Assembly (NCBI GenBank): GCA_020073445.1
Contig: JAIQFE010000004.1
Coordinates: 1-64,000, forward strand
Direction: 5' to 3'
Length of the DNA stretch: 64,000 nucleotides
Source: Terriglobia bacterium
GTDB lineage: Bacteria; Acidobacteriota; Terriglobia; Bryobacterales; Bryobacteraceae
The notes beneath the pieces are model-generated. The model searched no databases, was not told where the DNA came from, and worked only from the letters and a program-made list of their open reading frames with translations. Every line of letters begins with the position of its first letter. The stretch's first letter is position 1. Positions 46,020 through 61,468 of the stretch are shown in pieces. A program made the position numbers and the translations under genes.

Positions 46020-46065
46020 AATTGCCGCAGGTTGTAGAATAGTGAGGGTCGGGAGGTTAGTTCAG

Positions 46066-46515
46066 ATGCGAGCCAGATTCACTGTCGGAGCCGTGGTCGT
46101 AGCCGGCATTACGATGCTTTTGTCGCCGTCGCCCGCGCGGGCGCACCATGCGTTCGCGGCGGAGTTTGACGAGAAGAAGCCGGTTAAGTTCGCGGACGCC
46201 ACGGTCACGAAGGTTGAGTTGATCAACCCCCACAGCTGGATCCACGTCGACGTGAAGCAGCCCGATGGAACAGTGGTCAACTGGGCGATCGAGGCGGGCA
46301 GCCCGAACATTCTGCTGAGGCGAGGCATCACGAAAACCACGCTCAAGCAGGGGGACAAGATTGTCATCGACGGGTATCAATCGAAGGACGGATCGCACCG
46401 AGCCAACGGCCGCGACCTCACGCTGCCGAATGGGCAGCATCTTTTCCTGGGATCTTCCGGTCCCGGCGAAGGGGCTCCGTACGAAGTGCCACGGCCCGGC
46501 GTCGACACGAAGTAA
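46066..46515 (+). CDS. DUF6152 family secreted protein (cassette 2)
   Basis: A 149-residue exported protein; the signal peptide ends at ARA and the mature part starts HHAFAAEFDEKKPV. 'INPHSWIHVDV' and 'KDGSHRANGRDL' match the DUF6152 protein of cassette 1. The ATG at 46066 follows GGGAGG by nine bases; an upstream extension is unlikely. It is convergent with another DUF6152 gene, only nine bases away. Confidence 0.85.
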   Translation: MRARFTVGAVVVAGITMLLSPSPARAHHAFAAEFDEKKPVKFADATVTKVELINPHSWIHVDVKQPDGTVVNWAIEAGSPNILLRRGITKTTLKQGDKIVIDGYQSKDGSHRANGRDLTLPNGQHLFLGSSGPGEGAPYEVPRPGVDTK

Positions 46516-46524
46516 TCCGGCGGA

Positions 46525-46890
46525 CTAGTTTCCGGCCTCGACCTTGAGTTCCTTGCCATCGGGCAAGGTGATCTTGGTGACCCAGATCGAAGGCACGTTG
46601 TTCTTCCCGACATAACCGGTGATGGTGACTTTGTCGCCAGATTCCAACGTTGCCGCGGTCCATCCACGAGGAGCCAGGTGGGCCGGACTAGTCATCTCGC
46701 CGTGCCAGGTGCGAACTTCACCCTTGTCGTCTTTGACGTCGAAGTCGACGATGCAGTGGGGATTGGTCCAATGGAAATCGGATACCGTTCCAGTGAACGT
46801 TACTTCTGACTTCGTGTCGAAGGCTGCGTATCCGTGGTGTGCGCCGGCTATACCTGCGGTGATCACCAACGCTAAGAGAATATTCTTCAT
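46525..46890 (-). CDS. DUF6152 family secreted protein, coupled to the alpha-subunit paralogue
   Basis: A 121-residue exported protein: signal peptide MKNILLALVITAGIAGA, then HHGYAAFD, 'WTNPHCIVDFDV' and a final 'WVTKITLPDGKEL'. It is more divergent than the two cassette DUF6152 proteins. Its ATG overlaps the TGA of the QhpA-like gene (ATGA), so the two products are made together; this suggests that DUF6152 proteins work with periplasmic haem or quinone enzymes. Confidence 0.83.
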   Translation of the reverse strand: MKNILLALVITAGIAGAHHGYAAFDTKSEVTFTGTVSDFHWTNPHCIVDFDVKDDKGEVRTWHGEMTSPAHLAPRGWTAATLESGDKVTITGYVGKNNVPSIWVTKITLPDGKELKVEAGN

Positions 46891-48557
46891 TTGGTTGCTC
46901 CTTGTGCTGCCGCGACCGGTCCGTTATCGACCCATTTATTGAGATCCCGAACGTACTCGCGTCCAGCGAATGTGTACGAAGGGACAGTAACCACCAGGTA
47001 GCACTTGCCGACCAGCGGCCTGCCGTTCCGATCCTTGTCATTCTTGGCCGTCGCGACCACCCAGACGTCGAAGTTGTTGCCGGGGCTTTGAGAAGCGGGC
47101 GTGAGAAGACCCGTGGGGCTGACTTTACCGACGAAATCCGTGCTGACGCCTTCCGCGACGTAAAATACTTCGAGCGACCAGTTCACCTCCACGGGACCAA
47201 GATCGACATCGTCGGCGGTGTGCAGCTTCCCGTCGGCGCCGCGCTGGTATCCAATGGCTTCGAACTGCTGATAGCCGCGGGGTTGCGTCGCATCGCCGAA
47301 CGTGGCCAGAGCCGATTCGGGCGTTACCTTGACGTAGTCAACACGATCGTAAATCGCGAGGGCGCCGGGGATCGCGGAACCTTTGAGGGCAAGGTCGTGT
47401 TTGCCGAGCGAGGCGTCGGAAGCGACGTCGACGTCCGCGATCACTTCACTCGCGGTATGAGATACGATCGTGCGCACCGTCAGGCCGGGCCCGAAGTTCA
47501 GGTCTGCTGGCCCGATCTGCGTGGGAAGGTTGTATCCGACCACGCGAATGCGATTGGCTTGGGAGTCGGCCTTCAGAGATGCGCGATCGACGGCGACGAG
47601 CGTGGGATTCGAAGAGGCTCGCGTGAGCTTCACATCGAAGCCGAACTCCTGATACTGTCCCCAGAACCAGCGGCCCTCAGCGGACGACTGATCCGGCGCG
47701 ATCCACAAAACCTCGCGGGTCTCGCTGGCGAGATCGTCGGCAGCGCCACTCGCCGGGCTTGTGCCATTCGCGAGATTCTCGCCCTTGGAACGTCCGCGCC
47801 AGGCGTAGCCCCCGTAGACCGCGATGTGCCCGGAGCGGACAAGCTTCGAGCCGTCACGCACGGAGATCAGGGTCACACGCGTGTTGAACTCGTCGTCGCC
47901 GGTGGGAACCACCTGCATCTCGCCGAAGTATTTCCCATGGCCCAAGATCGAAGCGGTCACCATCCAGCGGCCTGCTAGGTTTACGGCGGACTTGCGGGCG
48001 CTCCAGGCGTCCCATTCGGGAGTGTGCAGCGGAGCGGCCTTCGCCAGAAACGTCGCCGTGGCCTCATTCGGAACTTTGTACTGCGCGGCATGCGAGGCTG
48101 CGAACTGTTTCCAATCGTCGGTCGAACGCCTCCAGGAAAGCGCGCGAGCGAACGTGTGGCACTTGGTGCAAGCGGTCCCGAGTCCGCCGCGCGGAAGGGT
48201 AGTTTCCTCCTGGACGCGGCGCTCGGTGTCATACATTACCGGCTTGGCTTCCTCAGGTGCGAGCCCATGGTTGGTGCTGAGATATTTGACGATCGACCGG
48301 GCCTCGGGAGCGTTGACGGAGACGCCGTAGCCGAGGATCATCCGCTTCAACGCATCCTGCCAGGCTTCGGGCGTGGTCCGCGCAAACGAGATGCGCTGCA
48401 TGTTGCCACGATCGTCGCGCGCGTGGCAGCTGGCGCACTTCGCGATCACCAGCGGATCGTTGACCGGGATGCCTTCTTCGGACTGGGCGCGGGCGACACC
48501 GGAAAAAACAATACAGAAGATGAGAGCGCAAGCGAAGCTTCGAACAGCCGAGGTCAT
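46887..48557 (-). CDS. Quinohemoprotein amine dehydrogenase alpha-subunit paralogue (orphan)
   Basis: A 556-residue exported protein that aligns over its whole length with QhpA at 56298-58064. It has two haem c sites, C41-ASCH and C130-TKCH, followed by the beta-rich domains ('WRGRSKG', 'SAEGRWFWGQYQEFGFDV', 'GPVEVNWSLEVFYV', 'WVVATAKNDKDRNGRPLVGKCY' in parts). No beta or gamma subunit gene lies beside it; instead a DUF6152 gene is translationally coupled. It may replace QhpA under other conditions, bind another partner, or act alone as a dihaem electron carrier. GGGAGG precedes the ATG. It is divergent from qhpF. Confidence 0.88.
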   Translation of the reverse strand: MTSAVRSFACALIFCIVFSGVARAQSEEGIPVNDPLVIAKCASCHARDDRGNMQRISFARTTPEAWQDALKRMILGYGVSVNAPEARSIVKYLSTNHGLAPEEAKPVMYDTERRVQEETTLPRGGLGTACTKCHTFARALSWRRSTDDWKQFAASHAAQYKVPNEATATFLAKAAPLHTPEWDAWSARKSAVNLAGRWMVTASILGHGKYFGEMQVVPTGDDEFNTRVTLISVRDGSKLVRSGHIAVYGGYAWRGRSKGENLANGTSPASGAADDLASETREVLWIAPDQSSAEGRWFWGQYQEFGFDVKLTRASSNPTLVAVDRASLKADSQANRIRVVGYNLPTQIGPADLNFGPGLTVRTIVSHTASEVIADVDVASDASLGKHDLALKGSAIPGALAIYDRVDYVKVTPESALATFGDATQPRGYQQFEAIGYQRGADGKLHTADDVDLGPVEVNWSLEVFYVAEGVSTDFVGKVSPTGLLTPASQSPGNNFDVWVVATAKNDKDRNGRPLVGKCYLVVTVPSYTFAGREYVRDLNKWVDNGPVAAAQGATK

Positions 48558-48816: not shown

Positions 48817-50517
48817 TTGGCCTTCTGGAGGGGACAACCAGCCGACGAAACCCGAAGCGAAACGGCAGTTCTGTTCGCGGGATACCGGCGCGTCGCGCGC
48901 TTCCTGATTCCGTACCGCTGGCGGATGGTTTTCATCCTGCTTACCGGAGTCGCCGCGTCGGCGTTCGGGCTCGCTCAGCCGTACATCTCCAAGCTCCTGA
49001 TCGACGAAGCTCTCCTTCAGCGGAATTTTCATGCGCTCTTGATGATCAGCCTGCTGATGGTCGGCGCTACCGCCTTGAGCTTCGCGCTGAACATTTTGTC
49101 CAGCTATCAATACGTGCGGGTCTCGGCCGCGGTTCTATTCGACATGCGCGTGGCGTTATACCGGCATCTGCAATCGCTATCGCCGCGATTCTGGGCGCGG
49201 AGCAAGCTGGGCGACGTCGTTTCGCGGATCAACAGCGACATCTCGGAAGTGCAGAGAGTGGCGGCGGACAGCCTGTTGAGCGTGCTATCGAACGTGGTCT
49301 TTCTCATCGGGAGCGCGGTCATCATGGCGTCCTTGAACCTGCGCCTGTTTTTGCTGAGCATCGCGGTTGTGCCGTTCAGCCTATGGGCGCTGCGGCATTA
49401 TCAAAACAAGCTTGCGGGACGCGTAAAAGCGGTCCGCCAGAGCAGCGCGGATATCGGCAGTTTCCTCCTGGAAACCTTGCTGGGGATTCGCGCAGTGGTG
49501 ACCGCCGGCGCGGAGAAGCGCGAGGTAGCCCGCTTCCGCGAGCGCAACGATACCTTTCTGGAGGCGCTGCTGAAAATGCAGCTGACGTCTTTCCTGTCGG
49601 GAGCTGTTCCGGGAACCATGCTGACGCTGTGCACCGCAGCCCTCTTCCTTTACGGCGGCAAGCTGGTGATCGACGGCGTCCTGACTACCGGCTCGCTGGT
49701 GGCGCTGATGGCCTACCACGCCCGGCTGCTTTCTCCCGTACAGAACCTGATGAGCCTGTACACCAATCTGGTTTCGGGAGGCGCGTCTCTGGCACGGGTT
49801 TGGGAATTGTTCGACACACCGCCCGAAGTTGCCGAACGTTCGCTGACCACGGAGTGTTCCAAGGGCGGCGGCGATGTGGAATGCGTCAACATTACGTTCC
49901 GTTACAACTCGGCCGATGCTGTGTTCGAGCGGCTATCCTTCCGTGTGCCGGCGGGAAGCATTTGCGCGATCGTCGGACCCAGCGGCGCGGGCAAGTCGAC
50001 GCTGGCCGATCTTCTCGTCCGCTTTTACGACCCCGAGCAGGGCGCGATTCATCTCGACGGCACGGACTTGCGCGAGCTGCGGCTGGTAGATCTGCGCCGC
50101 CAGGTGATGCTGCTCGATCAGGCGCCGTATCTGTTCCAGTCGAGCGTGCGCGAGAACATCGCATACGCCCGGCCCGACGCCACGGAACAAGAGATCATCG
50201 CTTCCGCGCGCGCTGCGGCCATTCACGAAAGAATCATGGCGCTTCCGAACGGGTATGACACGGCGCTGGCCGAGCGCGGTCAGACCCTTTCGGCGGGGGA
50301 GCGCCAACGCGTGGCGCTGGCTCGAGCTTTACTGGCGAACCCCAAGGTATTGGTGCTCGACGAACCAACTTCGGCATTGGACGAAGAGAATGAGCGCACC
50401 ATCGCCGAGACGTTATCGACAGCGCTCTCGGGACGCACGGCCATTATCATTACGCATCGCCCTTCCCTGGCACGCATCGCGGACCAGGTGATCACTTTAG
50501 GCACTCGGGGATCGTAA
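48817..50517 (+). CDS. qhpF: ABC exporter of the QHNDH locus
   Basis: A 566-residue half-transporter: six membrane helices in residues ~25-310 and an ATPase domain with Walker A GPSGAGKST (~387), signature LSAGERQR (~491; Gly-Gly-Gln replaced by Ala-Gly-Glu) and Walker B VLVLDEPTSALD. In known qhp clusters QhpF carries the cross-linked small subunit QhpC across the membrane. The start is a TTG at 48817, backed by AAAGGAG seven bases upstream. qhpE follows after five bases, so they are cotranscribed. The assignment rests on context plus family; ABC exporters alone are not specific. Confidence 0.87.
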   Translation: MAFWRGQPADETRSETAVLFAGYRRVARFLIPYRWRMVFILLTGVAASAFGLAQPYISKLLIDEALLQRNFHALLMISLLMVGATALSFALNILSSYQYVRVSAAVLFDMRVALYRHLQSLSPRFWARSKLGDVVSRINSDISEVQRVAADSLLSVLSNVVFLIGSAVIMASLNLRLFLLSIAVVPFSLWALRHYQNKLAGRVKAVRQSSADIGSFLLETLLGIRAVVTAGAEKREVARFRERNDTFLEALLKMQLTSFLSGAVPGTMLTLCTAALFLYGGKLVIDGVLTTGSLVALMAYHARLLSPVQNLMSLYTNLVSGGASLARVWELFDTPPEVAERSLTTECSKGGGDVECVNITFRYNSADAVFERLSFRVPAGSICAIVGPSGAGKSTLADLLVRFYDPEQGAIHLDGTDLRELRLVDLRRQVMLLDQAPYLFQSSVRENIAYARPDATEQEIIASARAAAIHERIMALPNGYDTALAERGQTLSAGERQRVALARALLANPKVLVLDEPTSALDEENERTIAETLSTALSGRTAIIITHRPSLARIADQVITLGTRGS

Positions 50518-50522
50518 TCTAT

Positions 50523-51197
50523 ATGCGGATCGCAATCATCGACAGCGGCATTCATGAAGGCCATCCGCACGTCGGACGCGTAGCGGGATCGGTTCATGCG
50601 ACCGCGACCGGCTGGGGTGACGATCCCATGGATCATCTGGGACACGGAACCGCCGTGGCAGCCGCGATTCGCGAGAAGATGCCACGGGCGGACTTGTTCG
50701 CGGTGAAGATTTTCGATCGCCGGCTATCGGCGAATATCGAAGCCGTCTTGCGTGGGTTGAGGTGGTGCCGGGACGAAGGGATGGATTTCGTCAACTTGAG
50801 TCTGGGCACGGCGAATCCGGATCATCGCGACCGGTTCATGGAAGCGCTGGCCGGGGAAATGGTCGTGATCAGCGCCGCTCCCATGCTGCCCGGCAGCCTA
50901 GCCGGCGTTATCGGGGTCGATTCCGACGAAAGTTGCCCGCGCGATGCTTTTCGCTATGAGGACGGAGTGTTCTATGCGTCGCCCTATCCGCGGCCCATAC
51001 CGGGAGTGCCCAAGTCGCAGAACCTGCAAGGCATCAGTTTCGCCGTGGCGAACATGACGGGGCTGGCTGCTCAAGTTCGTGAGGCTGCGCCTCGCAAAGA
51101 CATCTGGAGTGCGTTACTGGAGCGCGCGACTTACTTACCGGAAGCGTCGTCGGAATCGGTCCGCTCCGAATATTCGGCGACGTCAGGGGAAGCATGA
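50523..51197 (+). CDS. qhpE: Subtilisin-like leader peptidase for QhpC
   Basis: A compact 224-residue subtilase without signal peptide or prodomain. The triad is D7 (IDSGI), H41 (GHGTAVA) and S172 (QGISFAVANMTG, where the usual GTS.A.P is GIS.A.A). In characterised systems QhpE cleaves the leader from the cross-linked gamma subunit in the cytoplasm, and the lack of export signal fits. The gene is five bases after qhpF. The last 67 bases overlap an antisense metalloprotease gene. Confidence 0.88.
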   Translation: MRIAIIDSGIHEGHPHVGRVAGSVHATATGWGDDPMDHLGHGTAVAAAIREKMPRADLFAVKIFDRRLSANIEAVLRGLRWCRDEGMDFVNLSLGTANPDHRDRFMEALAGEMVVISAAPMLPGSLAGVIGVDSDESCPRDAFRYEDGVFYASPYPRPIPGVPKSQNLQGISFAVANMTGLAAQVREAAPRKDIWSALLERATYLPEASSESVRSEYSATSGEA

Positions 51198-51841
51198 AGC
51201 TCGCTGAGCGTGGTTTCGGTGAATTCGAAATGATCCGACAGCAGTTCAGCTACGGTGAAGGAAGGCTCCGCAACCCCGTTGCGCGCGTGACCGTGCGTCT
51301 GCCCGATGACATGATAAAGCTCGTGCGCCATGAGTCGCGCCACGGCACGGGCATAGACGAATTCCTGTACCGTTTCCGGTTCCTTCCACAACGAAGGACC
51401 CAGGAAGGAGTTCAGCGCCGCGCAGTCGATATCGCCAAAAGGAAGGACCACCCCGTCGGCCACAGCGCTCGAGGCCAGGGTGAAAGGTCCGCTGACGGCG
51501 TGTTCGAAACGAGCGCTCGGTTCCGTAGGGCGGCACGAGCCTCGCAAGCGGACCAGCGCGGAGTAGTCGTTTTCGGCGGCGTCGCGGTCAACCGCGGGAT
51601 CCTGCCATTCCACATGGATCGCGGCTGGCTGCAGGAGGTGGCTCAGCTCCTGCTTCATTTCCGAAGAAGCCGCGGGCGCGATGGCCGAGTCCGAGGTCAG
51701 GAAGATGACCAGCTTCTTTTCGTGGGATGGGAGAGACGTCGCGTCAGCCGAAGGGATAGACTCCGGGCGGCAGATGCACATGCTCACGCTGAGCACGCCG
51801 GCGAGGGCGAAGATGTGTGCAACACGAGGCACAGCAACCAC
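51131..51841 (-). CDS. Exported zinc metalloprotease-like protein with HExxHxxGxxH motif
   Basis: A 236-residue protein with a hydrophobic N-terminus (residues ~5-24, ending VSMCIC, possibly a lipoprotein). The zinc motif HELYHVIGQTH (H173, E174, H177, H183) has the metzincin spacing, followed by 'GHARNGVAEPSFTVAELL', a pattern I recall in acidobacterial proteins of unknown target. The DNA is also open on the other strand, but the motif and signal peptide support this one. It lies between qhpE and qhpG and overlaps the end of qhpE by 67 bases. A link to QHNDH maturation is not established. Confidence 0.75.
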   Translation of the reverse strand: MVAVPRVAHIFALAGVLSVSMCICRPESIPSADATSLPSHEKKLVIFLTSDSAIAPAASSEMKQELSHLLQPAAIHVEWQDPAVDRDAAENDYSALVRLRGSCRPTEPSARFEHAVSGPFTLASSAVADGVVLPFGDIDCAALNSFLGPSLWKEPETVQEFVYARAVARLMAHELYHVIGQTHGHARNGVAEPSFTVAELLSDHFEFTETTLSELHASPDVAEYSERTDSDDASGK

Positions 51842-51858
51842 AGTTTAGTACAAAAAAT

Positions 51859-52854
51859 ATGAAAAACATTTTCATATCCGGGGATGGAGTTGCGGCGTGC
51901 TGCTGCGCCTATCTTCTCCAGAAGGCCGGATTTCGAGTGGCCGTGAAGCGAAACGAGCGTCCTCGACTGCCCGCGATTCTATTGAGCGATGCAGCTCTAG
52001 CCCTGATCCAAGGCGTTTTCGGCGATTTATCTTTCGACCAGTCGCATCTCATTCGGCGTCGCGTGGTCGCATGGGGGCCGGATTCCCAGGCGGTCACGGT
52101 CGACCACTTCGCGCGCGTCGTCTCGGAGCAGAACCTTTTGGCGAAGCTGTGGTCGCGAGTGGATCTTGATCCGGAAGGCGACACTGACTGGACGATATTC
52201 TCTTCGAGGCCACTGCCTCCTGGCGCGATCGAACAAAGATTCGGGACGCGGACGGCATCGGTTGTGCAGGTGTCACTAACGGACCAGTCCGATTCCGCAT
52301 CCTGCTGGATCGAATCGATCCAGAACGGATGGTTGTTCCTGATCCCTGATGGGCCGGGCACGGCTTTGGTCCTTGCCGTGGGAGGTCCCGCGGAGTCGCT
52401 TCTCGATCAAAGCCGGATCATCGGGGAGCAAATCGCAAAACGCGGCGAAGCGGCCGGAAACTTTCCGGCGCATCCGCGGATCTTATCCTCCTTATGTGGG
52501 GACGCGTGGCTGGCATGCGGCACCGCTGCCATGGCTTTCGATCCGATCTGCGGCGATGGAACTTCGCACGCGGTCCGCGAGGCGATCCTGGCGGCGGCGA
52601 TCATCCAAGCTGCAGCCGACGGTCAGAATCCGGTAGAGTTACGTTCGCACTACGAGACTCGCTTGCTGGCGGGATTCGGACGCCACCTGGCGCTATGCTC
52701 GCAGTTCTATAAGACCGGACATCACGGACCATGGTGGGAGCAGGAGCTGAAATCGCTCGAAGAGGGCATGGCGTGGTGCGGGCAGCAGCTCGGCGATCGC
52801 CGGGATTTCCGTTATCAGCTGAACGGCTTCGAGCTGCAGCCTACTGCAGGCTGA
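51859..52854 (+). CDS. qhpG: Flavin monooxygenase for CTQ formation
   Basis: A 331-residue FAD-dependent protein. The Rossmann start is 'FISGDGVAACCCAYLLQKAGF' in two blocks (GDGVAA as the dinucleotide loop), and 'GDAWLACGTAAMAFDPICGDG' is the second flavin motif typical of tryptophan halogenase-like monooxygenases. In known systems QhpG hydroxylates the Trp of QhpC that becomes cysteine tryptophylquinone. The ATG at 51859 begins the Rossmann strand; the ribosome site is weak. It is on the same strand as qhpFE but separated by the antisense protease gene, and its 3' end overlaps the convergent small secreted gene by 14 bases. Confidence 0.85.
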   Translation: MKNIFISGDGVAACCCAYLLQKAGFRVAVKRNERPRLPAILLSDAALALIQGVFGDLSFDQSHLIRRRVVAWGPDSQAVTVDHFARVVSEQNLLAKLWSRVDLDPEGDTDWTIFSSRPLPPGAIEQRFGTRTASVVQVSLTDQSDSASCWIESIQNGWLFLIPDGPGTALVLAVGGPAESLLDQSRIIGEQIAKRGEAAGNFPAHPRILSSLCGDAWLACGTAAMAFDPICGDGTSHAVREAILAAAIIQAAADGQNPVELRSHYETRLLAGFGRHLALCSQFYKTGHHGPWWEQELKSLEEGMAWCGQQLGDRRDFRYQLNGFELQPTAG

Positions 52855-53296
52855 AAATCTGTTCGGTGTGGACGTTGACGCCGCTGGGAGTGGTGACGTC
52901 GGATTCGGAGGTCAAAGTATTTCCATCGGGCGAGACCGTCATATGCGTAGTTACCGCAGGACGACCCGAGCCTTCCATCAGGACCTTATATGACCCGCCA
53001 TCGCGAGATACCCTGGCGGTACCCATCTTCTTGCCGTCTCCGCCCGTGACCTCGGCCTCGGTTCCATCCAACGGCGTGGTGAACTTGAGAGAGACGACCG
53101 GCTTCTCGTTCACGGTGACGATAAACGCGAAGTCGAACGACTTGCCGGCCCGAGTGATGGCAAGGGTAAGCGGGTTCGAAGCGGTTTCTTTCCCCGCGAC
53201 CTCCTGATGCTTAAGCAGCCACTTTCCCGCGATGGGCTCATCCGCCCGCGCCAGCGAGGTCGCAAGAATGAGAAGAGTTGCGGCTCGCAGCAACAC
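52841..53296 (-). CDS. Small exported protein at the end of the qhp operon
   Basis: A 151-residue protein with signal peptide (MLLRAATLLILATSLARA) and an all-beta mature part: 'IAGKWLLKHQEVAGKE', 'FAFIVTVNEKPVVSLKF', 'MTVSPDGNTLTSESDVT'. This looks lipocalin-like (alternating strands, about 130 residues). It starts three bases after the qhpD stop, so it is in the operon. I know of no such gene in characterised qhp clusters. Its role could be in assembly or substrate binding. Confidence 0.75.
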   Translation of the reverse strand: MLLRAATLLILATSLARADEPIAGKWLLKHQEVAGKETASNPLTLAITRAGKSFDFAFIVTVNEKPVVSLKFTTPLDGTEAEVTGGDGKKMGTARVSRDGGSYKVLMEGSGRPAVTTHMTVSPDGNTLTSESDVTTPSGVNVHTEQIFSLQ

Positions 53297-53299
53297 GCC

Positions 53300-54748
53300 C
53301 TAATCCAGCCCTTTTCTGTGCGCGAACTGCTCCAGGAATCCAGGATTCTGGGCGCTGATCGTGCCGAAAATGCGGAGGCAGGTGTCGGTCCACTCGCGAA
53401 TCCAATCGCAGAAGTGCAGGTTCGCATGGCCAGTATCGCCATACCGGACGAATGCTTCGTGGTGGCATCCGCCGGCGCACAGCGGCCGGGCGAAGCAACT
53501 GTGGCAATCGTACTTCGCACCTATATGGCCGCGGTCCAGAAAGTCCTTCTGCTTTTCGCGATCGACGCCCGTGGAGATATTGCCGAGGGAATGCGTATCG
53601 GAATCGACAAAGCGATGGCAGGGCGCAATATCGCCGGAGGGCCCGACGCCGAGTAAACCGAGTGCCGCGCCGCAGGGGTGCGATTTGTTCACACCCTGGT
53701 AGAGCTCGCCGAGCGTTTCGCTGACGTTCGAGAAGCCGTGCAGTTCGCCGCGCAAAGCGTGTTCCAGATATTCGTCCGCCAGGAGCTTGAATTGTTCGAG
53801 CACGCCGCCCATGCCCTTTTCGTTAATCGCGTAAAGCCGGTCCGGCGAGGTCGTCACGGGCGCGAATCCAACCTCGGCGAATCCGAGCTCGTTTTTCAAG
53901 TGCCGGTAGATGCGGATCACGTCCGTGACGCCGTTGGTCAGGGTCACGCGCGCGGTGATCGGCCGGGTGCGATGCCCTTGAATCAGCGCCTTCACTCTGG
54001 GCTCGATGATGTCGTAACTGCCGCGCCCGTTGGCGAACACGCGCAACTTGTCATGCAATTCCGGAGGACCATCCATGCTGACCGTGACGCCGATGCTGTT
54101 ATCCGACAAGAACTGGATGATCGTGGGCGTCAGCAGAGTCGCGTTCGTGGTGAGGCTGAAATCGATGAAGCGATCCTGGGAGGCGGCTTTATCGCTGGCG
54201 TAAGCCACCACTTCCTTGAGGAGCGGAAAGTTCATCAGCGTCTCGCCGCCAAAGAAGGTAATGTGAATGGATTTCCGGCCTTCCGATTCCTTCAGCAGGA
54301 AATCCACCGAGGCCTTGGCGGTCTCGATGTCCATGAACTTCGGCTTGCCCTCGGGCGTCGCGACCTTGTCTTCGCCGAATTCGTAGCAGTACGTGCATGC
54401 GAGATTGCACTGGTTGGTGAGGTTCATCACCAGGCTTTGCAAAGGAAACTTCGCGGGCGCGCTCTCCACCGGTTCGGGCGCGGGTTCGCCGGTCACGATC
54501 GCGCGTGAGAACAGCATCTCGCGCAGAAGCTCGGAGGCGTCGTCGAACGCATAGCCGCGATCGGAGAGGGTGGCCAACAGATCATCAAACTGCGCTTCCC
54601 CCGCTGAAAGTGCACCTATGACCGCGGCCACGCCCTCGTCCACTTCGAAGATGGCACCGGCCGGAACCAGATAGAGAAACTGGCGGCCACCTCCTTCGAA
54701 TTTGTGAAATTCTCCGAGTCTATACGTGCGAGTCTCTGTTGCGAGCAT
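53300..54748 (-). CDS. qhpD: Radical SAM thioether-forming enzyme for QhpC
   Basis: A 482-residue radical SAM/SPASM protein. The N-terminal ~100 residues look like a peptide-recognition wing ('LVPAGAIFEVDEGVAAVIGAL'). The 4Fe-4S/SAM site is C114-NLA-C118-TY-C121, and auxiliary cluster cysteines follow in NKSHPCG, GDIAPCHRF and CHSCFARPLCAGGC. This is the layout of QhpD (TIGR03906), which makes three Cys-to-Asp/Glu thioethers in the gamma subunit. GGAGGT precedes the ATG. It lies 41 bases after qhpB on the same strand. Confidence 0.95.
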   Translation of the reverse strand: MLATETRTYRLGEFHKFEGGGRQFLYLVPAGAIFEVDEGVAAVIGALSAGEAQFDDLLATLSDRGYAFDDASELLREMLFSRAIVTGEPAPEPVESAPAKFPLQSLVMNLTNQCNLACTYCYEFGEDKVATPEGKPKFMDIETAKASVDFLLKESEGRKSIHITFFGGETLMNFPLLKEVVAYASDKAASQDRFIDFSLTTNATLLTPTIIQFLSDNSIGVTVSMDGPPELHDKLRVFANGRGSYDIIEPRVKALIQGHRTRPITARVTLTNGVTDVIRIYRHLKNELGFAEVGFAPVTTSPDRLYAINEKGMGGVLEQFKLLADEYLEHALRGELHGFSNVSETLGELYQGVNKSHPCGAALGLLGVGPSGDIAPCHRFVDSDTHSLGNISTGVDREKQKDFLDRGHIGAKYDCHSCFARPLCAGGCHHEAFVRYGDTGHANLHFCDWIREWTDTCLRIFGTISAQNPGFLEQFAHRKGLD

Positions 54749-54789
54749 CCATCACCTCCAGGAGGATCACTCCCGCCGTCGAATTTGGA

Positions 54790-55875
54790 CTATGGAACGC
54801 CAATCATTCCGCCGCGCATGTCATTGCCTAAATCCCAGGTTGCTTCGTGCTGGAATGTGACCGCGTCATACACGTCGATTTCAAATCCTGCTCCGTACAT
54901 GTAGAGCTTTTTGCCATCCGGCGACATTCCGAAGCTGAAACGCGACCGGCACGGGATTTCGGAAGTCTTAGCGATGCGGCTGGTTCCCATATCGATCCCC
55001 CAGACCTCGCAGCGCTTATTCCCGAGCGTCCCTTCGGTGACCACCGTGTAGCCCATCTTCTTATCAGGCGTGATCCGCAGATTCGTCATCGATACGGGCG
55101 CGGGCCCGATCGGCGTGAACTCGAACTTGCGGGTGTTCAGGTCGAAGTGAGCCAGTCCGAACGCTTTGTTGTGCACGATCGGGTCGGAAAAGTTGAAGAG
55201 AGTGACGCGCTGGCCGGGTTCGCTAAGGGCCTCCTGGAGCCCGCCAAGGCTTAAGCTGTCTTCGCTCGGATCTTCGGGCCGCCCGAGGTCGATTCGCTCG
55301 ACAATGCTGAAGTCGGACGACTTCATAACGATTACCTGATTGCGGAACTGATACAGGTACTGGCCGTCCGGAGAAACCTCGAATGCCCCGCCCCCATTGC
55401 CGCCCCCGGCATCCGGCGTGTCGCCTTGCGCCGCCGAGGAGTCGACTGTCTTCACGATCTTCTGTTGCGCCAGATCGATCACCGTGTACTTTGGCTTGCC
55501 GATCTCGAATCGGTCAGCGTGCTTGATGATTTCCGTGGTCGTCGCATACAGAACTTTGCCGTCCGGATCGGGAGCGGCTCCGTTGAGACGATAGCGGTGC
55601 GTCTCGGAATTCAATACGAAGTGATTGGTGACCTTGCGGGTGGCGATATCGATGACCTCCACGCCACTGCGGTCGTTAGTCGTGACGAAGATGGTCTTCT
55701 TGTCGTTCGAGAGACGGAGCCCCGTGGGCAAGCCCGTCACCAACGGAATCCGCTCCAGAACCTTGCCGTCGGCGGTATCCACGATCATCACGATATTCGG
55801 ATACGCGCCTAGGTATAGGGTGCCTCCGCTCGCGAAGACACAAGACAGGATGAGCAAAAACACTAGCAGCTTCAT
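54790..55875 (-). CDS. qhpB: Quinohemoprotein amine dehydrogenase beta subunit
   Basis: A 361-residue exported seven-bladed propeller (signal peptide MKLLVFLLILSCVFASGG). Blades read 'TLYLGAYPNIVMIVDTADGKVL', 'TIFVTTNDRSGVEVIDIATRKV' in parts, 'VLYATTTEIIKHAD' and 'KKLYMYGAGFEIDVYDA'. Length and blade text match the QHNDH beta subunit (TIGR03907), which holds the gamma subunit in the periplasm and carries no cofactor. GAGGG precedes the ATG; 43 bases separate it from qhpC. Confidence 0.92.
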   Translation of the reverse strand: MKLLVFLLILSCVFASGGTLYLGAYPNIVMIVDTADGKVLERIPLVTGLPTGLRLSNDKKTIFVTTNDRSGVEVIDIATRKVTNHFVLNSETHRYRLNGAAPDPDGKVLYATTTEIIKHADRFEIGKPKYTVIDLAQQKIVKTVDSSAAQGDTPDAGGGNGGGAFEVSPDGQYLYQFRNQVIVMKSSDFSIVERIDLGRPEDPSEDSLSLGGLQEALSEPGQRVTLFNFSDPIVHNKAFGLAHFDLNTRKFEFTPIGPAPVSMTNLRITPDKKMGYTVVTEGTLGNKRCEVWGIDMGTSRIAKTSEIPCRSRFSFGMSPDGKKLYMYGAGFEIDVYDAVTFQHEATWDLGNDMRGGMIGVP

Positions 55876-55918
55876 AGTTCCCTCGTAATCGCCTCTCGTC
55901 GTCAGCTCTCTTAATCAA

Positions 55919-56266
55919 CTACGGAAAAACCAGATCGAGATTGCGCCAGTCCTTGGTGGCAGCGGCACACTTGCTGGCCCAGTCCGGATAGTTGTTCAGA
56001 TGGTCGGGCACTTGCGACGGCCAGAAGCAAGTCACGTAGCAATCGTAGATGTCGCGCTCGACCGGCTGACATAACCCAGCCGTGCCACCCGCCGAATCGA
56101 CCTCCCATCCGGGCGAAAACGCCAGTGCGCATCCCATGGGCACATGGGGCCGCTGCTGCGGCGTCGGATTCTGATTATTCTGCAGACCGACGACGTCTTC
56201 CGCCAGGGATGCGACGTAATTGTCCACTCGTCGCGCCTTCTTATTGATTGCTCGCAAGTGTTTCAT
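55919..56266 (-). CDS. qhpC: Quinohemoprotein amine dehydrogenase gamma subunit (CTQ precursor)
   Basis: A 115-residue ribosomal precursor. With an offset of 39, its residues equal the mature numbering of known gamma subunits: C46 (7) to E55 (16), C66 (27) to D72 (33) and C80 (41) to D88 (49) are the three thioether pairs, and C76 (37) with W82 (43) form cysteine tryptophylquinone. All seven spacings are exact. Residue 81 (position 42) is Phe, where other members can have Trp. One extra Cys (C100) is unpaired. The leader is basic and helical (MKHLRAINKKARRVDNY) with no export signal, as expected for QhpF export. AAAGGAACG precedes the ATG. It lies between qhpA and qhpB. Confidence 0.96.
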   Translation of the reverse strand: MKHLRAINKKARRVDNYVASLAEDVVGLQNNQNPTPQQRPHVPMGCALAFSPGWEVDSAGGTAGLCQPVERDIYDCYVTCFWPSQVPDHLNNYPDWASKCAAATKDWRNLDLVFP

Positions 56267-56297
56267 CGAACGTTCCTTTCAGCGAACTCTTCTGCGG

Positions 56298-58064
56298 TCA
56301 CTTGGTCACCTCCGGCTGATCCCACTTGATATAGGTGGGAACGGTTACTACCAGGTACGACTTGCCGACCAGCGGCTTTCCGTCCTTGTCCTTCTCATCC
56401 TTCGCGGTCGCCACCACCCAAACGTCGCCGTAGTTGTTGCGGCTGAATTTGCGCTGGGGATTCGGGCCGTCAATGTTCGGACTGAACAGTCCGGTGGAGC
56501 TCAGGCTGCCGACGAACTCCCTGTCGTCATCGCCGAACACCGACAGGAATTCCTCCACCGACCAGTTCACGTCCACTGGACCCAGGTCAATATCGTCGCC
56601 GGTGTGGATCTTACCGTCTTCGCCCTTCGCAAACGCGATGGCCTCCAGTTGCTGGTATCCCTTCGGATGCACGCTCTTCGCGTCGCCGCCCAAGCGGGCG
56701 AGCGCCGTCTCCGGCAGAACTTTGATGTAATCGATCTTGTTGTAGACGGCGATGGCATCCTGCAACGAGGAGCGTCCCACCGCCACATCACGTTTGCCAG
56801 TCGCGGCATCGGCCGCCACATCGACTTCCGCGACAATCTGCGTCGCAGTATGCGAAACGATGGAGGTGACCTTCACGCCGGCGCCGAAATCCAGATCGGC
56901 AGCCGTCACCTGCAGCGGGAAACTGTTCCCGATCAGACGCACGCGCTGGGCTTTGGATCCGGTCTTGAGCGAATATTTGTCGGTCGTGACCAGGAGAGGT
57001 TCGGAAGTCGCGCGCTGAATTTTCACGTCGAGACCGAACTCCTGATACTCGCCCCAGAACCAGCGGCCTTGGCCCCAGGATTGATCGGGCGAGATCCACA
57101 TCGCCTCGCGCATTTCGCTTGAAAGATCATCCGGCGCCGCGCTGGCAGGGGCCGCGGAACCTTTCGACCGGCCGCGCCAGGAGTAACCCGCATAGACCAC
57201 GCTGGTTCCGGTCCTGGTGATCGCCGGCCCGCCGCCCACCGGCTGAAGCTTCATGGTGGTCGTGAACTCATCGTCCGCCGCTCCCGGAGCGATGGTCATT
57301 TCGCCGTAGTATTTACCCTTGCCTAGAATGTGCGCCGAGACCATCCACTTTCCAGTCATCTTCGGCGCGCGCATCCGGGTTCGCCAGGCAGCCCACTCGG
57401 GCGTGTGCAATCCGTAGTTCTTGGTAAGGAAGTCGATGGTCTGATCGATAACAGGTACTGCTGGCGCCGCCGGAGCGGAACCGACTGCAGGAGCTCCGCC
57501 ACCGCCGCCGTTCCTGTTACCGCCTCGGAATGCCGATTCCGCCTGCTGGTAGAGAGCGGAGTGCAAGGTCGTCAGCAGGGTCCATTCTTCTTTGGTGCGA
57601 TGCCACGAAAACGGCCGGCCAAGGGCGTGGCAGTTCATGCAGGTGCTGCGAATCGCTTCGTTCGGCACATCTTCGTCCTGAATTCGATGCTCCGGAATGT
57701 ACATCACGGGCTTGGCCTCTTCCGGAGCCAGGCCGTGATTGGTCGCCAGGTATTTCAGGATCGGCTTGGCCTCTTCGGACGTGATGACCAGTCCGTTGAG
57801 ACGCACCATCCGTTTAATCGCTTCTTCCCAACCTTCCGGAGTGGTCCGGGTCCAGGATATCCGCGAAAGATTGCCCTTTTCGTCCTTGGTATGGCAGGTT
57901 CCGCATTTCTTGATTACCAACGGGTCGGTAACGGGGAATCCTTCTTCGGCCGCTGCCGCCGGTTCCGCCGCGGGACGCTGGCCGCCGCCCCGCCCGTTTC
58001 GGCCCTGGGCCATGACCAATCCGCTACAGAGGACTACGGCCAACGAAATCCCGACTCTCTTCAT
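56298..58064 (-). CDS. qhpA: Quinohemoprotein amine dehydrogenase alpha subunit (dihaem)
   Basis: A 588-residue exported protein. Two haem c sites lie in the N-terminal cytochrome domain, C54-GTCH and C142-MNCH, followed by three beta-barrel domains ('WRGRSKG', 'WGQGRWFWGEYQEFGLDVK', 'LGPVDVNWSVEEFL'). A Gly/Ala/Pro-rich insert (about 180-210) is longer than in its paralogue. In the enzyme, electrons from CTQ on gamma pass through the two haems to an external carrier after oxidising a primary amine to an aldehyde. The ATG at 58064 follows GGAGG by five bases; an earlier ATG in the same frame lacks one. It is 26 bases after the TonB receptor 3 stop and 31 before qhpC. Confidence 0.94.
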   Translation of the reverse strand: MKRVGISLAVVLCSGLVMAQGRNGRGGGQRPAAEPAAAAEEGFPVTDPLVIKKCGTCHTKDEKGNLSRISWTRTTPEGWEEAIKRMVRLNGLVITSEEAKPILKYLATNHGLAPEEAKPVMYIPEHRIQDEDVPNEAIRSTCMNCHALGRPFSWHRTKEEWTLLTTLHSALYQQAESAFRGGNRNGGGGGAPAVGSAPAAPAVPVIDQTIDFLTKNYGLHTPEWAAWRTRMRAPKMTGKWMVSAHILGKGKYYGEMTIAPGAADDEFTTTMKLQPVGGGPAITRTGTSVVYAGYSWRGRSKGSAAPASAAPDDLSSEMREAMWISPDQSWGQGRWFWGEYQEFGLDVKIQRATSEPLLVTTDKYSLKTGSKAQRVRLIGNSFPLQVTAADLDFGAGVKVTSIVSHTATQIVAEVDVAADAATGKRDVAVGRSSLQDAIAVYNKIDYIKVLPETALARLGGDAKSVHPKGYQQLEAIAFAKGEDGKIHTGDDIDLGPVDVNWSVEEFLSVFGDDDREFVGSLSSTGLFSPNIDGPNPQRKFSRNNYGDVWVVATAKDEKDKDGKPLVGKSYLVVTVPTYIKWDQPEVTK

Positions 58065-58090
58065 GAAATCCTCCATGGACACTCAGATCC

Positions 58091-61000
58091 TCAGAATGTG
58101 ACTCTTCCCGTGAGCTGCAGGGCGCGCGGGCCACCGGCTTCAGCGTTTTGCATAGCGTTGATCGTGCCGAAAGCGGCATTTCCCAGAACCAGGCTGGATG
58201 GAACCGCGTAATTCGGATGATTGAGCGCGTTTGCCGCGGACGCTCCCACGCGCATCTTCACGCGTTCCGTAATCGGGATCGTACGGAACACGGAGAGAGA
58301 CACGGCTTGCGTCCCAGGGCCCAGGACGGAGCCGACGGGCGAGTTTCCGTAACGGCCAATGTTGTTCGCGGGGACGGCGTAAGCCGCAGGGTTGACCCAG
58401 AGAGCCGGGCCCTGGTTCACGGGAATCGGCGATACCCCGGGAACAATATCGGCTCGGACCGTTCCACCGGCGGTACTCGAGGAACCCGTGCCGGCGGGAT
58501 CGGCGCCGCTGGTCGTGACCGTCAGGAACGGGCCGGTTTCGAAGGTCAGGACTCCAGCCACTTCCCAGTTGCTAACGGCTTGCCGAAGGATGGCATTATG
58601 CCCCGTGAGCGACGTTATGTAGAGGAAGTTTGACTGAAAACGTTGACGGCGAGTGTAAGCCACGTTGCCGTAATCGAGGCCGGGATTAAACCTGTCCGTG
58701 ATGGTGCCGCCAGCTTCCGTGGAGAACGCGGTAGGATTCGCTCCTCCCGCATCAGAGAGGTTTTTGGCGAAGGCGTAACTTGCCTGAAACTGAAGGCCTT
58801 TCGAAAATCGGCGGTTCGCAGCGATTGTAACTGCGTGGTAGTTACTGCGCCCACCGTTGGTTTCATAGGCGATGTTGCTAAATCCCGGATATGGAGTGGC
58901 TGCCTTGGAAGCCACGAAGCCCAGCGTGTTGGCGGGAATCTGGTTGGCGTTATATTGATACCCCAGTTCGCTCCCATGACTGCCGTCGTAGGTCACCCGC
59001 AAACCTGTGCTGAAACCGATGTCGCGTTCCACCGTGAAATTCCATTGCTGGACGTAAGGATCGTGGTAATGCAAGGCGGAGGCGAGCTGGAACGATTCGG
59101 CTCCGGGTACCGCGAGGACAGCCGGGAATGCATTCGGAAAGGTCAATACCGGTTTTCCACCGACGAAAGAGTTGGCGTATTTCGCCACGTAGCTTGCTTC
59201 GGTTGCCCACGATGCACTTACTCCGCTGCCCGCTTCAGCCTCGATGAATTTTCCATAGCCGCCGCGGATGACCGTTTTGCCATCCTTGGTCGCCCGGTAC
59301 GCAAAGCCGATGCGGGGAGAAAAGTCGCGCGTGTCGGCATAGCGAAGACTCGGGTTTACGCCGATCTGACTGGCCGTGATGATGGGCGTCGGCGCAATCG
59401 ACGCTCGGAACGAATCATTAACCAGTGATTCCGCGCCGTCGGGAATGACGATCGCGCCGCGCACCGTTTGCCCGTTGATGGTGCTGACGTAGTCAGGCAG
59501 AAAGTTGGAGATGTTGTTGTAATGGTCGGCGTAGTTGGGGTGATATTCCCATCGCAAACCGTAATTCAACGTGAGCCGCGAGGTGACCTTCCAGTCGTCC
59601 TGAATGTAGGTTGCATAGCTGTTTCCGTAGCCGTCGGTATCCGGCGCCGTCACCGTTGTCAGCCCGGTTTGGTCCGGAATCCCCAGCAGGAAGGCCGCGA
59701 ACGGAGAACCAATGGGCCCGCTGGTCACGGACGAATTATTGAAGGTGTACGTCCCCATCCGGCCGCTAGCGAAAACGTTGGTATACAGCCCTTTCTGGTG
59801 GCGGAAGTCGCCGCCGAACTTGATGGTGTGGCGACCCTTGGTCCAGGTCAGGCTATCCAGGAGCTGAGCTGTGCTGGCACGCGAGCGCGAGGTTGTCCCG
59901 CCGCTGGTGGCAGTGAATCCGGTGATCGTGAAATTCGTAGCGGCCGCGCCCGGTGGCGGTGGGAAGGGAAGAGTCAGTCCCAACGCGGAAAGAACCTGTC
60001 CCGACGTATATCCGTAGCCCGTGGCCGTGTTCTGCCCACTCAGGCCCACGCGAACCTCATTCACCATATTCGGAGTGAGGATGTAATTGTGGGCGCCGGA
60101 AACGCTGTAGTCGTTTTCGAGCTGGTTCCCGCCGCCAAGCACGGTAGCGCCGGTCGGAGCCGTCAGGTTCTGCCTGCGCTTGTAGGTAAAGCGCGCGAAG
60201 GCCGTCTGCTTGGCCGTAATATTGTGGTCCACCTTAAGGTCGCCTTGATTGTTCACAATCGTGGTCGGAAAGTTTTGCACGTAGTTGTTGGCGATCGCAC
60301 CGGGCGCGCCCGTGTTCGGGGACATCGGCCAGTAGTAATTCATGGCTCGCTGGGAAAGATCGGATATACGAGTTAGCGGTATTTGATTCCCAGGGAAGGT
60401 GCCGCCTAGCGGATCCTTCACGATGGTCTTCGGCAAGTACACCGACAGATCGCCGGACTTCATCGCCGCCGTCGGTATGCTCACGGTGGTCGCGGTCGAC
60501 CTCGGGAGCTGTAGCCCCTCAAAGTCCGCAAAGAAGAACGTTTTGTCTCTTCCGTGATAGAGCTTGGGAACGGAAATCGGCCCGCCCATGGAAGCTCCGT
60601 AGTCGTTCATCACCAGCTTCGGGAGGGTTTTCGCAAACGGGTCGCGCGCGTTCATGAACTGGTTCTGCCAGTTCTCAAACACACTTCCGTGATAGGCATT
60701 GGTGCCGCTCTTCGAGATCGTGGTGATATCGCTGACGCCGCTAAACTCCGCCGTGTTGTTGATCTCGCTCACGCGAATTTCGGCGATGCCCTCAAACGAC
60801 GGGAATAGTTCCGCGATGGGCGCGCCGGTCTTGGCGCTCGACGTGCTGATTCCGTCGAGAGTCATGGAAAGCATGGCGGGTTTGTTACCCGCGACCGAGA
60901 TGTTCCCACTCGCGTCGGTTTGAACGCCGGGCTGCGTCGTCAGGGTCGTGATCGGGCTGGTGGAACCGCTGGCGCGCGAGGCTATCGCCACCGGAAGATC

Positions 61001-61468
61001 GATCAGCTCGCGGCCGACTTTGGTCTCGGCCACGTTCGATACTTCCGTCTGGACGGTGGACACGGCAGCCGTCACGGTAACGGATTCGGTCTGCGTCGCG
61101 ATCGTCAGGTTGGTGTCCACGCGAGCTGCTTGCCGGGCCAGGAGCTCAAAGCCGGTCACCGAGGATCGCTGAAACCCGGGCGCTTGGAACACAAGATCAT
61201 AGACCCCCGGGTCGATATTCACGAACAGATACGCCCCGTCGGCGCCTGTTACGACGTCGCGCTTGACGGAAGTACCCTTGTTCACTAGGCTCACGACACA
61301 AGTAGGAATCGCGGCCCCGGCCGGATCGCGCACGATTCCGGTGAATGAACCAGACGTCGATTGGCCCGACGCGCTGCTTAAAAGAAGCTGAATCGCCATC
61401 ATCGCGATGGCGCATGAAAGACTCTTGATTGAGAAGCCACGCATTAGCGCGGTGTAGTTGGATGACAT
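58091..61468 (-). CDS. Oar-like TonB-dependent receptor heading the qhp operon (receptor 3)
   Basis: An outer-membrane receptor of 1125 residues: signal peptide (up to SASGQ, ~residue 36 with an extended n-region), carboxypeptidase-like domain ('GSFTGIVRDPAGAAIPTC'), plug ('AEFSGVSDITTISKSGTNAYHG' in parts) and barrel ending 'QLTGRVTF'. It lacks the CNC and CHC cysteine motifs of receptors 1 and 2, so belongs to another subgroup. GGGGGGAGTG lies upstream of the ATG at 61468; an ATG eight codons later is possible. Only 26 bases separate it from qhpA, so it is the first gene of the operon, which suggests that the imported substrate is an amine or amine-containing compound. That is inference. 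Confidence 0.92.
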   Translation of the reverse strand: MSSNYTALMRGFSIKSLSCAIAMMAIQLLLSSASGQSTSGSFTGIVRDPAGAAIPTCVVSLVNKGTSVKRDVVTGADGAYLFVNIDPGVYDLVFQAPGFQRSSVTGFELLARQAARVDTNLTIATQTESVTVTAAVSTVQTEVSNVAETKVGRELIDLPVAIASRASGSTSPITTLTTQPGVQTDASGNISVAGNKPAMLSMTLDGISTSSAKTGAPIAELFPSFEGIAEIRVSEINNTAEFSGVSDITTISKSGTNAYHGSVFENWQNQFMNARDPFAKTLPKLVMNDYGASMGGPISVPKLYHGRDKTFFFADFEGLQLPRSTATTVSIPTAAMKSGDLSVYLPKTIVKDPLGGTFPGNQIPLTRISDLSQRAMNYYWPMSPNTGAPGAIANNYVQNFPTTIVNNQGDLKVDHNITAKQTAFARFTYKRRQNLTAPTGATVLGGGNQLENDYSVSGAHNYILTPNMVNEVRVGLSGQNTATGYGYTSGQVLSALGLTLPFPPPPGAAATNFTITGFTATSGGTTSRSRASTAQLLDSLTWTKGRHTIKFGGDFRHQKGLYTNVFASGRMGTYTFNNSSVTSGPIGSPFAAFLLGIPDQTGLTTVTAPDTDGYGNSYATYIQDDWKVTSRLTLNYGLRWEYHPNYADHYNNISNFLPDYVSTINGQTVRGAIVIPDGAESLVNDSFRASIAPTPIITASQIGVNPSLRYADTRDFSPRIGFAYRATKDGKTVIRGGYGKFIEAEAGSGVSASWATEASYVAKYANSFVGGKPVLTFPNAFPAVLAVPGAESFQLASALHYHDPYVQQWNFTVERDIGFSTGLRVTYDGSHGSELGYQYNANQIPANTLGFVASKAATPYPGFSNIAYETNGGRSNYHAVTIAANRRFSKGLQFQASYAFAKNLSDAGGANPTAFSTEAGGTITDRFNPGLDYGNVAYTRRQRFQSNFLYITSLTGHNAILRQAVSNWEVAGVLTFETGPFLTVTTSGADPAGTGSSSTAGGTVRADIVPGVSPIPVNQGPALWVNPAAYAVPANNIGRYGNSPVGSVLGPGTQAVSLSVFRTIPITERVKMRVGASAANALNHPNYAVPSSLVLGNAAFGTINAMQNAEAGGPRALQLTGRVTF

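Follow-up and report, generated by a model that had tools for sequence, protein, structure and literature searches.

Does the DNA between positions 48,817 and 61,468 of contig JAIQFE010000004.1 encode a complete quinohemoprotein amine dehydrogenase (QHNDH) together with its maturation proteins, and in what does this system depart from those of Paracoccus and Pseudomonas? The segment belongs to a stretch of 64,000 nucleotides (positions 1 to 64,000 of the forward strand, hereafter the window) of a Terriglobia bacterium of the family Bryobacteraceae (assembly GCA_020073445.1), which we take to be a soil bacterium. An earlier note on this DNA had described a complete but rearranged QHNDH locus, in which all residues of the gamma subunit precursor QhpC that take part in cross-links are conserved. 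We consider it very probable that the locus represents a QHNDH system with all of qhpA–qhpG, and that it is of a five-cysteine type common to Acidobacteriota and some Alphaproteobacteria (Sphingomonadaceae, Acetobacteraceae).

The qhp gene set and its products

All seven genes were found, with open reading frames throughout, at the coordinates and on the strands that had been claimed for them:

48817–50517, plus strand: qhpF, ATP-binding cassette exporter; PF00664 and PF00005 above cut-off, homologues at the qhp loci of relatives
50523–51197, plus strand: qhpE, subtilisin-like leader protease; NF049966, 140.8 bits (cut-off 165); PF00082, 39.7
51817–52854, plus strand: qhpG, flavin adenine dinucleotide (FAD) monooxygenase of 345 aa; NF049967, 69.3 bits (cut-off 240)
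53300–54748, minus strand: qhpD, radical S-adenosylmethionine (SAM)/SPASM cross-linking enzyme; TIGR03906, 624.2 bits (cut-off 453)
54790–55875, minus strand: qhpB, beta-propeller subunit; TIGR03907, 66.9 bits (cut-off 223.2)
55919–56266, minus strand: qhpC, gamma subunit precursor with leader and fifth cysteine; NF037958, 135.8 bits (cut-off 50)
56298–58082, minus strand: qhpA (alpha1), dihaem subunit with two CxxCH motifs; TIGR03908, 541.5 bits (cut-off 274.35)

QhpA, QhpC and QhpD exceed the curated NCBIfam cut-offs, and TIGR03906 matches a single protein in the source genome. None of 14 control genomes reached the QhpA or the QhpD cut-off, weaker radical SAM matches being present in 12 of them. 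The four haem cysteines of the alpha subunit form columns occupied by Cys in 36 of 36 rows, and the Asp, His and Ser motifs of the protease (DSG, GHGT, GIS) are recognisable in the QhpE translation. Some results weigh against the assignment. QhpB, QhpE and QhpG score below their curated cut-offs, though the best match of each is its own family, and a phmmer search of QhpG against the PDB did not return 7CTQ, the solved QhpG, among the matches at E ≤ 0.001. For QhpF, no QhpF-specific model was among the best 25 of 192 matching families. The loci of relatives carry recognisable homologues of the divergent QhpB, QhpE and QhpG of the window, those of qhpB lying in an A-D-C-B neighbourhood. The identification made in the earlier note is thus supported by the scores of QhpA, QhpC and QhpD, by the conserved cross-link residues and by the QhpG fold described below; of the profile searches it had proposed, those for QhpD and the gamma subunit gave scores above cut-off, whereas TIGR03907 stayed below. 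Neither a sub-threshold QhpC or QhpD nor a misalignment of the conserved residues, which the note had named as grounds for rejecting its claim, was observed. The gene set is complete as had been stated, but a second qhpA gene at 46887–48557 and the shortness of QhpG had been overlooked.

The alignment of QhpC with each of the two solved gamma chains covers 72 residues and needs no gap; it confirms the residues of the pairs C7-E16, C27-D33, C37-W43 and C41-D49 as well as Phe at position 42, which is Trp in both solved chains. The eight paired residues are the same in all 122 sequences compared, i.e., 120 distinct ones from 201 places and the two solved chains; the row of locus L011, short at the locus end, was left out, and that of genome G387, which has an in-frame TAG, ends before position 72. 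One of the searches behind this set supplied the best 80 of 581 matches, and other phyla are thinly represented. The TAG of the G387 gene (locus L087, near 8173) lies close to the C-terminus and is absent from the near-identical gene of G335 (locus L089).

The mature numbering of the earlier note holds as homology numbering. The published leader has 28 residues (PMC7876137), and the Paracoccus leader is cut between EEVVA and M, six residues ahead of the first core cysteine, which is residue 7. The homologous point in the window, between EDVVG and LQ, lies 18 residues ahead of that cysteine, which would be residue 19 if cleavage occurred there. Across the rows with the motif, redundant ones included, the stretch from cut motif to first cysteine measures 11–21 residues; four rows lack the motif as searched.

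An AlphaFold2 model of QhpG, calculated with 15 window and locus sequences, had a mean predicted local distance difference test (pLDDT) value of 90.6, and its first Foldseek match in the PDB was 7ctq_A, QhpG of Paracoccus denitrificans (E 2.7e-15, TM-score 0.71 by query, 18% identity); the next matches were flavin halogenases with similar E-values. The solved QhpG (429 aa) consists of a catalytic domain (residues 1–344) and a winged-helix domain (residues 349–429), as given in PMC7876137. Near-full-length matches at other loci span 288–354 aa from match start to stop, next to three shorter partial matches, and the window protein has 345 aa; therefore, the C-terminal winged-helix domain is missing in this group. 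At 14 loci from other acidobacterial families (L191–L204), and at L097, the best match was the long QhpG of Cupriavidus with 25–30% identity, while locus L190 gave no QhpG match. The weak matches in those other families (55–94 bits) may be other FAD enzymes.

Direct observation extends to the genes, how they score against their families, the conservation of residues and the fold predicted for QhpG, and every chemical step is inferred. By analogy with the Paracoccus system, QhpC would be synthesised with a leader, and QhpD would join C7-E16, C27-D33 and C41-D49 in the cytoplasm. QhpG would dihydroxylate W43, QhpE would remove the leader, and QhpF would export the gamma product. Completion of the cofactor cysteine tryptophylquinone (CTQ, W43-C37) would take place in the periplasm and involve the alpha subunit with its two haems, and the assembled alpha-beta-gamma enzyme would oxidise primary amines, the electrons leaving through the haems.

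The system thus resembles the QHNDH of Paracoccus denitrificans (1JJU/1PBY) and Pseudomonas putida (1JMX/1JMZ) in alpha and gamma sequence, in the two haem motifs, in the cross-link residues of QhpC and in the QhpD/E/F/G maturation set, but differs by a fifth cysteine and an acidic residue 72 in QhpC, Phe42, a longer N-terminal linker, a divergent beta subunit, the gene order A-C-B-D and an extra alpha gene.

The fifth cysteine of QhpC

That all cross-link residues of QhpC are conserved was correctly stated in the earlier note, but the additional cysteine had gone unremarked. The codons concerned are:

56021–56023, minus strand: W43 (residue 82), the CTQ tryptophan, invariant in 122 of 122
55967–55969, minus strand: fifth cysteine (residue 100, position 61 by homology), shared by 91 of 122 sequences
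55934–55936, minus strand: Asp, candidate acceptor (residue 111, position 72)

Position 61 is Cys in 91 of the 122 sequences, whose core then contains five cysteines; the remaining 31 carry Ala, Val, Lys or Leu there and have four. The residue at position 72 is acidic in all 90 readable C61 sequences (89 Asp, 1 Glu; a further row ends too early), versus 6 of the 31 others, the rest of which have Gly, Gln or Asn there. Sequences with C61 stem from several families of Acidobacteriota and from Alphaproteobacteria (Sphingomonadaceae, Acetobacteraceae, Phenylobacterium), including named strains of Sphingobium, Novosphingobium (among them locus L212) and Acetobacter; those without it, which come from separate searches and the solved chains, represent Paracoccus, Pseudomonas, Leisingera, Cupriavidus and further genomes. 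Two other sets, both partly redundant, gave similar pictures: C61 and acid 72 co-occurred in 81 of 81 rows of an earlier set (one read past the stop), less selected than the 91 yet made of the rows nearest to the window, and in another set C61 was present in 95 of 106 rows, with all 94 readable ones acidic at position 72. QhpD varies along with its substrate: all 57 rows of the C61 type have Cys at residue 457, whereas Gly stands there in 18 of 18 classical rows, a number that includes repeats (15 as first listed; the plasmid rows L210, L211 and L213 are repeats). Position 36, which adjoins the CTQ cysteine C37, is Asp in 91 of 91 C61 sequences and Gly in 31 of 31 others.

In the solved enzymes, the other four cysteines of the gamma subunit are all consumed in thioethers, and the known acceptors of QhpD are Asp or Glu. 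For these reasons we propose, with less certainty than the identity of the system, that QhpD of the C61 type makes a fourth Cys-acid thioether, most likely C61-D72. Radical SAM enzymes that install several Cys-Asp links have a precedent in PapB, a relative of QhpD whose ranthipeptide product freyrasin carries six Cys-Asp thioethers (PMC8172795); that product is a peptide and not an enzyme subunit, and QhpD of the window scores 283.5 bits against the PapB model (cut-off 340).

A number of observations speak against a C61-D72 link. The C61 set is defined by C61 itself, so that Cys in 91 of 91 constitutes no test. A tree from which residues 61 and 72 had been excluded shows one change of C61 and six of acid 72, leaving one independent pair; because C61 arose once, its association with acid 72 is not independent evidence, and covariation is no proof. 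The residues F11, G25, R32, D36 and D67 are likewise fixed in the C61 set only, and two of them, D36 and D67, could take the place of D72 as acceptor. At 11, the spacing from 61 to 72 exceeds those of the established links (9, 6 and 8), and the AlphaFold2 model of QhpC, with a pLDDT of 45.6, was unusable. We regard it as an even matter whether C61 instead bears no cross-link of this kind and is an unreacted thiol, coordinates a metal or forms a disulfide with another protein, D72 being kept for packing. Its single origin alongside other fixed changes would fit one of many lineage-specific residues, and the long spacing points the same way, but the consumption of the remaining four cysteines in thioethers and the extra cysteine of the matching QhpD (C457) argue for the fourth thioether. 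So does the lack of a conserved partner: beyond the four haem cysteines, no column of the alpha subunit had Cys in ≥30% of 36 rows, and the beta subunit has no invariant cysteine in 35 rows, its two richest columns holding 16 and 14. A search for an intersubunit disulfide of C61, confined to alpha and beta, accordingly yielded no good conserved partner.

A second alpha subunit gene beside the locus

The gene adjoining qhpF in the window encodes a second full-length QhpA, termed alpha2, and is followed by a gene for a small secreted protein:

46887–48557, minus strand: alpha2, full QhpA with two CxxCH motifs; TIGR03908, 423.6 bits (cut-off 274.35)
46525–46890, minus strand: small secreted DUF6152 protein paired with alpha2; PF19649, 87.2 bits (cut-off 27)

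The window contains two DUF6152 genes, arranged tail to tail (46042–46515 and 46525–46890). In both proteins an apparent signal peptide is followed by a His-His pair (HHAF, HHGY), which could form a metal-binding N-terminus of the mature protein.

In a sample of the phylum, alpha subunits above cut-off occurred in 21 of 297 genomes, and two full-length ones in three, all of the window's genus. Within the order, at least 8 of 150 genomes, including that of the window, carry the alpha2 type, a minimum counted from the loci whose alphas were classified. All eight possess the gamma gene, as compared to 43 of the 150 at the cut-off (hypergeometric probability 2.8e-5, relatedness ignored). The eight alpha2 sequences form one clade (Shimodaira–Hasegawa-like approximate likelihood ratio test, SH-aLRT, 100; quick tree) inside the alpha1 sequences of the order, and alpha2 therefore is a duplicate of alpha1. 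Directly downstream, on the same strand, a DUF6152 gene is present in 8 of 8 genomes. The pair lies in or beside the qhp cluster in four of them and away from it in the other four, two of these at contig ends; a qhpB/qhpC/qhpD set of its own was not seen in the eight genomes. Both haem motifs and most invariants of the haem domains are kept in all eight proteins, R91 varying in four and M92 in two. The domain IV loop GPNPxRK..NNxG is absent from all eight, and D518, D520, G539, N541, R544 and G552, which hardly vary among 69 other alphas ranging from Acidobacteriota to Paracoccus, have been lost. In genome G345 (locus L079, 14939–15298), all that is left of qhpA is a C-terminal remnant overlapping the start of qhpF, with qhpB, qhpC, qhpD, qhpE and qhpF open, and alpha2, encoded nearby, is the sole full-length QhpA match in the assembly. 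The truncation may be genuine, or it may reflect faulty assembly of this draft genome.

Two roles can be envisaged for alpha2. It could be an alternative alpha subunit able to replace QhpA in the QHNDH complex, which we think rather unlikely. Its descent from alpha1, the presence of the gamma gene in all eight genomes and the situation in G345, where the other qhp genes named are open but no second full-length alpha was matched, would fit such a role; however, the six residues named above are lost, no gamma or beta gene of its own was seen with it, in half of the genomes it sits away from the qhp cluster, and the G345 argument is weakened if the remnant is an assembly fault. Alternatively, alpha2 and DUF6152 could constitute a separate periplasmic dihaem carrier or oxidase, either serving QHNDH, for example in the final oxidation to CTQ or by taking up its electrons, or having a substrate of its own. 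This we give about equal chances of being right or wrong, and we favour it over an alternative subunit because the lost loop is among the most conserved parts of true subunits. Retention of the CxxCH motifs and most haem-domain invariants without the loop, the constant pairing with DUF6152 and the restriction of alpha2 to gamma-positive genomes of the sample are consistent with a separate redox partner. PMC7876137, moreover, offers its account of the final oxidation as no more than a suggestion and names the electron donor of QhpG as unknown. On the other hand, no open-access paper naming DUF6152 was found, alpha2 was seen in at least 8 of the 43 gamma-positive genomes and is not generally required, and two of the eight proteins lack the otherwise invariant Met (alpha1 position 92). 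The joint proposal, that an extra-Cys QhpD forms C61-D72 (less likely a link to D67 or D36) as a fourth thioether and that alpha2/DUF6152 is a new redox accessory in some genomes, is put forward tentatively, at somewhat less than even confidence. A search of titles and abstracts of the open-access literature returned no account of the fifth cysteine of QhpC or of an orphan alpha, although an earlier mention is possible.

Gene order, neighbouring genes and relationships

The genes between and beside the qhp genes are:

51131–51841, minus strand: metalloprotease-like open reading frame with HELYHxxGxxHG; no Pfam or NCBIfam family at E ≤ 0.001
52841–53296, minus strand: small secreted protein, 3 bp past qhpD; no family at E ≤ 0.001
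58091–61468, minus strand: Oar-like outer-membrane receptor, separated by 8 bp from qhpA, which lies downstream; PF25183, 677 bits
61792–62547: OmpR-like regulator, the one regulator examined here; the QhpR regulator of QHNDH systems is of AraC type

On the minus strand, the order is Oar-qhpA-qhpC-qhpB-qhpD-secreted protein with gaps of 8, 31, 43, 41 and 3 bases, a series that has the look of a single operon. The plus strand carries qhpF, qhpE and qhpG. The qhp loci of relatives have the order A-D-C-B in 34 of 35 cases, the remaining one being cut after A-D, and qhpD is immediately upstream of qhpC at 149 of 151 places (redundant between searches), the two exceptions both being the window's own locus, counted twice. 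The order A-C-B-D, with qhpD downstream of qhpB, is unique among the places examined. The term "rearranged" used in the earlier note is justified in this respect, the order being odd compared with 149 of 149 other places, but not with respect to the split over two strands, which is ordinary: PMC7876137 describes arrangement, order and strands of the qhp genes as variable and the operon as present in more than 1300 species. QHNDH has been found in Gram-negative and Gram-positive bacteria, as cited in PMC8172795.

Decay or inactivity of the locus, with the divergent QhpB, QhpE and QhpG and the moved qhpD as signs of lost function, is very improbable. Three proteins below their cut-offs and a gene order found nowhere else are what such decay might leave, but every frame is open, relatives keep homologues of the same divergent QhpB, QhpE and QhpG, and the cross-link and CTQ residues of QhpC are all intact.

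The end assigned to the segment in the earlier note, 61468, is the start of the gene for the Oar-like receptor and lies outside the qhp genes. A same-strand Oar gene is located less than 700 bp upstream of qhpA at 11 of the 35 loci of relatives, whereas 10 of the 35 lack any tested gene upstream; the neighbourhood of Oar and qhpA hints at a role in substrate uptake across the outer membrane. The metalloprotease-like and secreted proteins reported as inserted genes are present. A role of the metalloprotease in QHNDH, however, is unsupported: its family is widespread, with members in 89 of the 150 genomes sampled from the order, and is rarely found near qhp genes, the matches close to one being those of the window, of G289 (about 1.6 kb after qhpE) and of G434 (a 49-residue partial match) only. 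Proteins with the HELYHxxGxxHG motif are common in the order, often in multiple copies per genome. As for the secreted protein, the genes of its two best homologues lie 5–9.5 kb from qhpA (G380, G384), and that of the third best (G406) lies off any qhp contig.

Loci of Sphingomonadaceae and Acetobacteraceae (part of L129–L181, and L212) resemble that of the window in C61, acid 72 and, where QhpG was found, its short form, but have qhpD upstream of qhpC. Their alpha sequences nest inside those of the window's order (surrounding forks 98 and 99; quick tree, no bootstrap), which suggests a transfer from Acidobacteriota to Alphaproteobacteria. The order also harbours a second QHNDH type, the alphas of L062, L065, L068, L071, L076 and L077 forming one clade (SH-aLRT 100); five of the six host genomes also yielded a type I locus. 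Locus L103 is from a contig titled Bordetella parapertussis HRS-HS12-bin-180. Its qhp genes look acidobacterial and the genome was placed in the window's genus, so the title looks wrong.

The short QhpG raises the question of what the winged-helix domain contributes in the solved enzyme, and alpha2 may bear on what completes CTQ and takes its electrons. If C61 is indeed linked to an acidic residue, the gamma subunit would be held by five thioethers, CTQ included. QhpD would then act iteratively, as a radical SAM enzyme that installs different numbers of cross-links in different natural clades, and these clades would offer a ready-made comparison for how such enzymes choose their acceptors and when they stop.

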